Below, in pieces: positions 26,024 through 45,620 of a DNA stretch of 64,000 nt. A program made the translations under genes and the position numbers. The notes beneath the pieces are model-generated. The model worked only from the letters and a program-made list of their open reading frames with translations, had not been told where the DNA came from and did no database searches. Position 1 is the stretch's first letter; every line of letters starts with the position of its first letter. The DNA is from Pristionchus mayeri. Its lineage: Eukaryota; Nematoda; Chromadorea; Rhabditida; Neodiplogasteridae. Where the stretch lies: assembly GCA_036245805.1 (NCBI GenBank), contig BTRK01000005.1, positions 36,747,469-36,811,468 of the forward strand, in the 5' to 3' direction.

Positions 26024-29000
26024 TCACTCTGCGGGCTCTTTCTTCAAGTCTTTTTTTGTAGCTCTGGTAGCGACGAAATGCTTCTCGAGGATGAGAATCT
26101 GAAAGGATGGATAAAATCAGTCCGTGATCGATAGATCCAATACCGTATACCTTGTAGTCATCGGAGAGCTGCTCGAACACATCCGCGTCTTTCACTTTGT
26201 CGTACATGTTGTTGCCCACAATCAGCTGGAAGTTAGAGTTAAATACGCCTAACTCATCTAGAATTAGAAATAACGATGTTTCCCGATCGTTGTGTGACTA
26301 CCTTAGTACCTGAATGCAGTGCTTCTGAAGCTTGACGAGCTTGAGTTCTTCCGACGCCTTCAGTGCTTCCAGCAGCAACTTCTCCGTCATGTTGCCCTTG
26401 GCTGGCTGCAGAGGGAGAAAGTTACAGTAATCGCTACAGTAACCTCAGATTGTGAAATGAAAGAATATGTTTCCGTATTCAGTTTATCCTTATTGCATGT
26501 ATGCTTAATTGGGTCGAACTATGATCAAAAGAATGGAAATATTGGGATCGCCTCCCACTAGAACTAGTATGCGAATGTTGAAGCTGGAGAGCGAGGGGTA
26601 AAGAACTCGTTCAATAATACTGTATTTTTGTTTTATATTTTTAAAAAATGCAGCAATATATAACAAGGCACTTGCGAAATAAAGATAATATCCGGGCCGA
26701 GATCTTGAACCATCGAAATCATTCAAAACGCCCGTTTATAAGATATTAAGATATTCTGAAACACGAACATAATTTTGTCGAGATCACTTTTTTGAATCAG
26801 ATTCAAAACCGTCGAGGAATCTTGAGAGTGCAGTCAGTATTCGATCGCCTTTTCCTCATCTACCGTATCCTACACAGCCTGTCAGGATGGACGAAAAGGT
26901 TCATTTTCGTGGCGGACGAGGTCTTTCTTTGTTCGCTCTCTTAATCCCTTCCGAGCCATTTCTCTCTCACACTTCCCCCCCGAACGGTCAGGCGAAGGTT
27001 GTGAAGAGTCAAATTTAATTGATGAAACATAACCATATTTACAATTTTAACGACATTCAAAAGCTCGAAAATCAAATATTTATTACGAAACATATCCAAT
27101 TTCCTTTCGAAAATCGCTATTTTCGACCTTAAAATTGTAACTAGTCTCGTAACGTCAATCTGATTAACCATTGAAATACATGAGTCGATAGCCAAGGCAT
27201 TGGCGCATAAGTTATAGTAGCGGATTTTCAAAGTTCGATCTAGGTTTTGCGTAGCATCAATTTCCGTAGCTCTATGAAGAAAAAACGGCGAAAATGACCA
27301 TTTTCGACCTTAAAATTGTAACTAGTCTCGTAAGGTCAATCTGATTAACCAATGAAATACATGAGTCGATAGCCAAGGCATTGGCGCATAAGTTATAGTA
27401 GCGGATTTTCAAATTTCGATCTAGGTTTTGCGTAGCATCAATTTCCGTAGAGCTCTGTGAAGAAAAAATGACCGCAAAACCCCAAAAATGGGGTGAAATG
27501 ATCGGTCTCTCCCCGTCTCTCATTAGAATACGTCCGCCGCGATATTGGCCATTCTCATCCAATCTGACAGGCTGTGTCCTACCGTATACTCACATCACAG
27601 TAATGCATGCAGTGGTTGATGAGGTAGTCGAATCTGAATCGTACACCCAGTCTCAGCATCCTCATAGCGTTAGACGGCTTCAGAACCTGTGAAAATCGAT
27701 AATTACAGACGGTACAATAATCGCATTTCAGCTCCTTTTTTATGAGATGAAAATATCGTAAACCATCATTCCCCCGAGGAGGAGGCACTCGGGAAGACCA
27801 GGTAGACTCTGTTCCGAGAAACATCATCCTTTTTGTAGTGATCAGTCACGAGCGCGAATTCAAATAATTTGACGGGTGTTGGATAACTTTAATAACCGGC
27901 AGCTTCGTGTTTTTTTTAGATTCGATTCCACGTATTCTTCTGGCACGAAAAATCAAATGAAGTAAAAGAGAAAATAATTAGACAGACCCCTCGTATGCCC
28001 ATCCTTGATACCGTATCCTTGATACCGTACCCCTACTTACCGGCAGTTTCGTGGAGTACATGGACACGACGAGAGCCGTGAGATCCTCGAATGAGCAGCC
28101 ATTGATGACCAATTTCTGCAAGAATTTGTATTGATTAGCGATGAGAAATCGGCACTGGCTCTCTTCATTTCACACACTCTCTCACTCTGACCTCCCCACT
28201 CATCGAATTACGAAAAGCACCGCACTCCCGTATTCCTATCCCTGCTACCTTATCCCCGACCGGACCTCCATGTTCTTCTCCCAATGAACTCCGTGATATG
28301 CCCGTGCGAAGAAGGAGGCGCGAGCAGAGAGTATCGACGAGCTCACGTAGAGACATTTGCCCTGAAATGAGGAAGGCAAATGATTGATGGCGTCATTTCT
28401 ATTTTTGTGCTGACAAGAGATGAAGGAAGTAATTTCATGGATTGTTAGCGCAGAAATCATAAATTCTAAAAAAAGAAAAGATAACATCCGCAATATTTTT
28501 GTTCTGAGAAAAGAGCACACGATTAACCAAGAAAGAATAAGCACCTTGTATGGGATCACTGAAACTCATAATCGGCAAGCACACTTGCGATCTGAATCAG
28601 CGACAATGCGCCACGTACCTCTATGTTCCCTCTTCATATTCTATTTATGCAAACTGATGGCCGATGCCTATCGCATCAATCAATAAATCGATAAATCAAA
28701 TCGTCTACCGTACCTCGCATTCGATAATGGCGTCCCTCAGATGATTGTTCGGATCTTTCACCAACTTCTCGATCTCGTCATCATTCTAAAAATATATTAA
28801 TAGCAAAAATAAATTAAAACGATGACGTGTTTGGTGCGCATCAGTGTGACAATTGTATTGTGATTCTCTGTTTCTCATCCACTCTTTTAAACGTTTGCTC
28901 CATGATCAGGATGATGTGGTGTTAAAAATCACCGCAAAGATCGGATCTGTGGAATGATTTTTTAAATCGCATGAGCGAGAGAGTGTGTCAAAGCGAGAGA

Positions 29001-45620: not shown

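Follow-up and report, generated by a model that had tools for sequence, protein, structure and literature searches.

PML and other scaffolds of SUMO-SIM bodies combine an oligomerising domain with SUMO-acceptor motifs and SUMO-interacting motifs (SIMs). The Drosophila BTB insulator proteins CP190 and Mod(mdg4) belong to SUMO-linked nuclear bodies, and Kelch-like and SPOP proteins of the BTB-BACK type are CUL3 adaptors. The gene described here lies on the minus strand of a 64,000-nt stretch of Pristionchus mayeri DNA (the window) and encodes a long array of small exon modules followed by a BTB domain. The working likeness to PML is an oligomerising domain accompanied by putative SUMO-acceptor-like and SIM-like motifs; with the Kelch-like and SPOP proteins the gene shares the BTB domain and a weakly similar tail. 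A Pfam scan of the 1349-aa version of the gene model gave no MATH, Kelch, RING, B-box or zinc-finger row, a difference from the TRIM/PML family (RING, B-box), from CP190 and Mod(mdg4) (zinc fingers), and from the Kelch-like and SPOP adaptors. Its BTB domain is C-terminal, behind the repeat array, unlike that of the adaptors and at the opposite end from that of the two insulator proteins. We know of no protein with this layout. With less than even confidence, we read the product as a multivalent nuclear scaffold that is anchored by its BTB domain and carries modules of SUMO-acceptor-like, SIM-like and basic kinds.

The gene begins with an ATG at 45620 and its stop codon ends at 26024, and 50 exons join into a single open frame of 1373 aa (Table 1). 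Candidate minus-strand exons were chained with a splice-site and codon model, and doubtful joins were settled by hand. The initial chain had 49 exons and 1349 aa, and this version was used for the motif shuffles and the Pfam scan; a deposited protein adds one exon (29560-29489), which gives 50 exons and 1373 aa. The earlier note had put about 49 exons between these two ends; its start and stop stand, and the exon count is now 50. The exons positioned or re-ended by hand are 42963-42832, 39246-39196, 34281-34185 and 33900-33683, outside the deposited protein, and 30371-30291 and 28361-28266, both matched by it. Of exons 41-51 of the initial automatic chain, 29560-29489 and 29213-29172, which are in the deposited protein, were kept, and the others were discarded as fits inside repeats. 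All 49 introns are GT-AG, which was itself a rule for choosing exons, and their length ranges from 50 to 2789 nt with a median of 202 nt. The donor GTCAGT occurs six times, and the deposited protein is spliced at one of these sites, 29489. The TTGTTCAG acceptor upstream of the ATG is a possible trans-splice site.

Table 1. Features of the modular BTB gene, in window coordinates
Feature	Position	Strand	Remark
Whole coding span, 50 exons, 1373 aa	26024..45620	-	One open frame; residues 1068-1373 = deposited protein
Candidate 13-nt 5' leader between TTGTTCAG acceptor and ATG	45621..45633	-	Inferred from sequence
Exons 3-6, four A/P/K/T-rich repeat exons (45, 39, 45, 45 nt)	44468..45068	-	
Exons 7-23, K-x-E-P exons (66-132 nt) alternating with basic exons (45-51 nt)	39196..44417	-	
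Exon 24, PKEEPVDD then KRRGRPP (sole AT-hook-like site)	38109..38219	-	
Exons 26-34, unit R(45)-G(120/126)-K(111) three times	35486..37754	-	K exons: PKKEP[IM]D + SIM-like VTVV
Exons 35-36, more K-x-E-P exons (KEEPMG, KQEPLD)	34599..35172	-	
Exons 37-40, K/E-rich linker; SIM-like IIIL core, two AAR[KR]LF words	33161..34281	-	
Intron 40, 2789 nt, repeat-filled	30372..33160	-	
Exon 41	30291..30371	-	Confirmed by deposited protein
Extra exon of deposited protein	29489..29560	-	
Exon 42	29172..29213	-	Present in deposited protein
BTB exons 28785-28714, 28361-28266, 28115-28041, 27686-27594 and start of helical tail 26405-26310	26310..28785	-	Pfam BTB; splicing identical to PMAYCL1PPCAC_25669
Last two exons 26225-26151, 26098-26024: C-terminal tail, weak BACK_BPM_SPOP match, end LKKEPAE	26024..26225	-	

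The anatomy is strongly modular. Introns are in phase 0 in 47 of 49 cases (phase 1 in the other two), and 46 of the 50 exons have a length that is a multiple of three, 13 being exactly 45 nt long, which bears out the phase-0, multiple-of-3 design noticed at the outset. An alternation of acidic K-x-E-P exons with 45-nt R-G-R exons had also been described. It is strict in exons 7-23 apart from one break, where exons 13 and 14 are two consecutive exons of the K-x-E-P kind (K-type exons), and in exons 26-34 its place is taken by the three-exon unit. Among the K-type exons, pairwise similarity brings out a short class (exons 9, 14, 18 and 22) and a long class (exons 11, 13, 16 and 20). The equation of 45-nt exons with R-G-R exons does not hold, as RGR is found in only five of the 13 (exons 10, 17, 26, 29 and 32); the others contain the variants KRGHR, RRGK, AKRLR or GRGN, or an A/P/K/T repeat (exons 3, 5 and 6).

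Part of the gene is already deposited. PMAYCL1PPCAC_25669, a hypothetical and partial P. mayeri protein of 306 aa, is identical to model residues 1068-1373 letter for letter, and it was the one match among 135 candidate proteins for the spliced BTB part, with 100% identity over 100% of the query. It starts within exon 39, and the annotated chain joins exons 39-49, crossing the 2.8-kb intron 40. Annotation as one gene thus already covers exon 39 to the BTB end, and exons 1-38 are a predicted extension made here. The pipeline behind the PMAYCL1PPCAC names is reported to combine ORFs of assembled RNA-seq data with homology to P. pacificus (PMC7992802, PMC11544036); the model of PMAYCL1PPCAC_25669 may come from either. 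Compared with the full model, the deposited protein is without the K-x-E-P and RGR array, and it is unnamed. A search with the full-length protein gave nothing at E 0.001 among 7982 candidates sharing most words, under a length rule that excludes 306-aa proteins, and residues 1110-1349, sought within long proteins, gave nothing at E 0.01 among 2668 candidates. None of the titles and abstract openings covered on Pristionchus and BTB describes this gene. The term "undescribed" almost holds: within these searches no protein or paper with the array came up, and the 3' end is on deposit as an unnamed hypothetical protein. The array is unusual and the anatomy is sound.

A partial tandem copy is located on the same strand at C5:36730204-36733615, about 14-17 kb past the low end of the window, and carries exons 36-41 and 46-49 in order; exons 1-35 and 42-45 were not found within the 20 kb searched. 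Exon 36 of this copy no longer has the K-x-E-P word (KQEPLD in the window copy), exon 38 does not seem to be open in one frame throughout, and the copy is likely to be decayed. Since its intron 40 lacks the repeats, they are most simply read as an insertion in the window copy, the alternative being a loss in the partial copy. The repeats themselves comprise a 246-bp unit present 4.6 times at window positions 30510-31642, every unit containing an almost perfect palindrome of 115 nt (arms of 56 nt, loop of 3 nt), a degenerate 126-bp tandem array of 4.9 copies at 31814-32414, and about 107 GACA units (97% matches) at 32418-32844, the source of long repeat ORFs.

We regard it as quite unlikely that the interval instead holds two genes side by side, with exons 1 to about 36-38 forming a repeat gene and the BTB domain encoded by another. 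The deposited protein does begin within exon 39 and is labelled partial, and artificial fusions are a known problem in Pristionchus gene models, as stated in the portion of PMC12981502 cited here. Against two genes, the open frame continues without a stop, and in the partial copy the K-x-E-P exon 36 is followed in order by exons 37-41 and 46-49, which fits one co-duplicated stretch; moreover, the long intron 40 is full of repeats that this copy lacks. A split within 29-34 kb is unlikely because exons 39-40 and the BTB exons, on either side of intron 40, are linked in the deposited protein, and because the partial copy carries its exons colinearly with a short intron there. The original view of one long modular gene is upheld by the single frame over 50 exons and by these two arguments against a break.

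KxEP[MVLI]D occurs 12 times in the 1349-aa model, compared with a mean of 0.01 and a maximum of 1 in 2000 shuffles. Together with the near-exact copies KQEPDD (exon 11) and KEEPMG (exon 35) this makes 14 motifs, in line with the roughly fourteen exons first counted; there is also a degraded copy, KTGPPLD, in exon 13, and additional K-x-E-P words are found in exon 38 and at the C-terminus. The description of these exons as acidic suits the nine of 14 with negative net charge and fails for the five positive ones (exons 9, 24, 28, 31 and 34). First-half copies were sought genome-wide by motif pattern, and exons 32-38 by sequence search. Searched at the DNA level, P-K-x-E-P-[hydrophobic]-D-[acid]-[acid] matches 12 times genome-wide, nine times within this gene, and the reversed-pattern control has no match. 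Of the other three matches, two lie on C2 and share one sequence, and the third is on C5 with an IKTE word nearby in frame; each of these places matched the strict K-x-E-P pattern once only.

The motif had been taken for the SUMO consensus, a hydrophobic residue followed by KxE and acidic residues. The relaxed SUMO-acceptor motif permits A or P before K. In the 1349-aa model, strict [VILMF]KxE is not enriched (3 vs. a shuffle mean of 2.41), and the residue before the motif lysine is proline in 13 of 14 motifs, so that the strict hydrophobic-KxE form was rejected as the general form of the motif; the relaxed form is found 17 times (shuffle mean 4.78, maximum 12). Most array motifs have acidic residues downstream, as in NDSM-like sites. 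The hydrophobic residue of the consensus is thus not borne out, while the K-x-E-P exons far beyond chance and the acidic residues that follow are. In the cited portion of PMC3395311, [IVL]KxE is given as the most frequent SUMO consensus. Judged by its residues, the K-type motif [P]-K-x-E-P-[MVLI]-D with its acidic residues seems most like an acid-assisted (NDSM-type) SUMO-acceptor, and the proline before the lysine is the chief doubt on this reading.

K-type exons 16, 28, 31 and 34 run on into a hydrophobic core (VSVL, VTVV) which resembles a SUMO-interacting motif and is predicted to bind SUMO. The published SIM patterns a, b and r, as quoted in the part of PMC3395311 used here, match six times before the BTB domain against a shuffle mean of 0.18, and none of 5000 shuffles reaches six; these patterns were picked after the cores DDDDVSVL, DEEEVTVV and EEPEIIIL had been noticed, and matches in repeats of shared ancestry are not independent. 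With two of the three internal units removed, the count is 4 vs. 0.15. The six matches are DDDVSVL, DEEVTVV, EEEVTVV, MMAMSDD (twice) and PMDVDDD; the last overlaps a SUMO-acceptor-like motif, and the two MMAMSDD matches correspond to MMAM in G exons. The strict patterns are satisfied neither by the IIIL core nor by VTVV in exon 28.

The basic exons had been described as AT-hook-like, on the ground that RGRP cores bind AT-rich minor grooves. The 1349-aa model contains 16 RGR words (shuffle mean 0.54, maximum 4), of which one is followed by proline, and a single [RK]GRP (shuffle mean 0.12). The AT_hook profile (PF02178) scores 13.9 bits at exon 24/25, below its cut-off of 17.4, and gives no row for three other RGR-bearing peptides tested. 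With one AT-hook-like site, itself under the Pfam cut-off, the notion of multiple AT-hooks was abandoned. R-[GR]-[RK]-[ST]-[ST] is found eight times before the BTB domain (shuffle mean 0.05); therefore, the basic modules tend to hold a Ser/Thr pair where the AT-hook has proline. A kinase reading of these exons through RxRxx[S/T] was set aside as weak (4 vs. 1.14, fraction 0.0275), as was a CSLinker row in the peptide profile scan that remained below cut-off. Two AAR[KR]LF words are present in exons 39 and 40 (window 33161-33619), and exon 39 of the partial copy reads AARKQF. Such words resemble cyclin-docking RxLF motifs.

Charge could also be all that counts in this array. The product would then be a polyampholyte whose charge blocks drive condensation or chromatin coating, with the K-x-E-P and RGR words as by-products of exon duplication, a live rival that we consider unlikely. 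The charge-block variance of 8.07 (shuffle mean 3.78, SD 0.46) exceeds all 500 shuffles, the maximum of which is 5.26, and in exons 7-23 the sign of the net charge switches at 13 of 16 junctions (shuffle mean 8.26, P 0.011), both as such a protein would have it. However, the K-x-E-P core is kept in 14 modules while the flanks diverge, the 12 exact KxEP[MVLI]D words are more specific than charge needs, and the five net-positive K-type exons do not fit.

The BTB fold reported at the end of the gene, after the K/E-rich exons, is confirmed by profile search: Pfam PF00651 scores 51.9 bits (cut-off 20.5, E 9.7e-14), and 49.7 bits in the deposited protein. The Pfam rows Colicin_Ia, MACPF and T4_Gp59_N fell below cut-off and were discarded. 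An AlphaFold model, made from the single sequence without relatives, is poor (mean pLDDT 45.5). The other live rival, which we hold to be somewhat improbable, is a CUL3-type substrate adaptor: the BTB domain and helical tail would bind cullin-3, the array would capture substrates or be modified for degradation, and K-x-E-P would serve the ubiquitin machinery. Among solved chains the best match by sequence is Kelch-like 22 (KLHL22; E 0.0013, residues 15-140 of the BTB part), ZBTB5 following at E 0.25, and there are many BTB loci in the genome (85 exon-level matches reported), both of which favour an adaptor. The tail adds a weak BACK_BPM_SPOP match (E 0.03), but at 14.9 bits this is under the cut-off of 27.4, and the missing MATH and Kelch rows also speak against this role. 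A distant BTB relative with BTB-like exons was found at C1:17.29 Mb (E 0.003), and no significant array match is present within the 9.5 kb read there. Seven BTB matches of equal score, about 5 kb apart, lie within 30 kb at C2:14818107-14848501 and probably represent a tandem BTB array of recent origin. About 7 kb past the high end of the window (flanking piece 7142-7237) there is a mere hint of a BTB-like stretch (31% identity, E 1.5).

The array has grown by internal exon duplication, and the exon-wise gain that had been suggested is evident in exons 26-34, which are three copies of a three-exon unit. Exons 28+29 and 31+32 differ with dS 0.389 and dN 0.063 (Fisher P 2.3e-4), and exons 26-28 and 32-34 with dS 0.215 and dN 0.087 (P 0.036); the Fisher tests used rounded counts. 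In the comparison with the partial copy, from which exons 37 and 40 were left out, exons 46-49 (BTB end and tail) gave P 3.1e-6, and exons 39+41 revealed no constraint (P 0.58). Of the duplicated segments one pair thus shows constraint, and so does the BTB end. Neutral exon proliferation, in which many of the 45-nt exons would seldom, if ever, be included in the transcript and the array would decay under little selection, appears very improbable to us. The degraded motif in exon 13 points that way, as does the R-exon pair 26/32 with dN > dS, although single R-exon pairs are too short for judgement. Intron identity between the duplicated units is 79.7% and 80.2%, little below that of the adjoining exons at 87-88% (differences at 13/111 and 6/45 sites), which also suits neutrality. 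The excess of dS over dN in exons 28+29 vs. 31+32 argues against it, as does the frame, open through all 50 exons, though exons were picked for openness.

In the multivalent scaffold that we tentatively favour, a large and probably mostly disordered protein, the C-terminal BTB domain would self-associate and the N-terminal ~930 residues would form an array of exon-encoded modules. K-type modules would supply a SUMO-acceptor-like motif with acidic residues, some also a SIM-like core, and basic modules (RGR and its variants, often followed by two Ser/Thr) would sit between them. Self-association of the BTB domain, SUMO-SIM binding and acid/base contacts may together hold the assembly on chromatin or nucleic acid, with a valency set by the number of exon modules. 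The high charge-block variance also speaks for this reading, and the five net-positive K-x-E-P exons speak against it. From the initial proposal of a DNA-binding, heavily SUMO-modified scaffold of variable valency, the modular gene, the K-x-E-P array, the BTB domain and exon gain are retained, and the strict SUMO consensus and multiple AT-hooks are not. A broader proposal, which we put forward as a speculation with rather little weight, is that repeated duplication of a few tiny exon types built a BTB-anchored SUMO/SIM scaffold with a logic like that of PML or insulator bodies, its valency being the exon number, tunable by exon gain, loss or skipping between close species.

If the array is sumoylated, the gene would provide a natural series for how SUMO valency sets the properties of nuclear assemblies, and CRISPR editing is reported in P. 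mayeri in the cited part of PMC11544036. The locus also illustrates how a new protein can arise, through the coupling of a BTB domain to exon modules that grow in number; the deposited protein holds the 3' end only. Elsewhere in the window, two open reverse-transcriptase ORFs at 3198-4487 and 12110-13546 (RVT_1 E 9.9e-22 and 6.3e-32) are probably retrotransposons.
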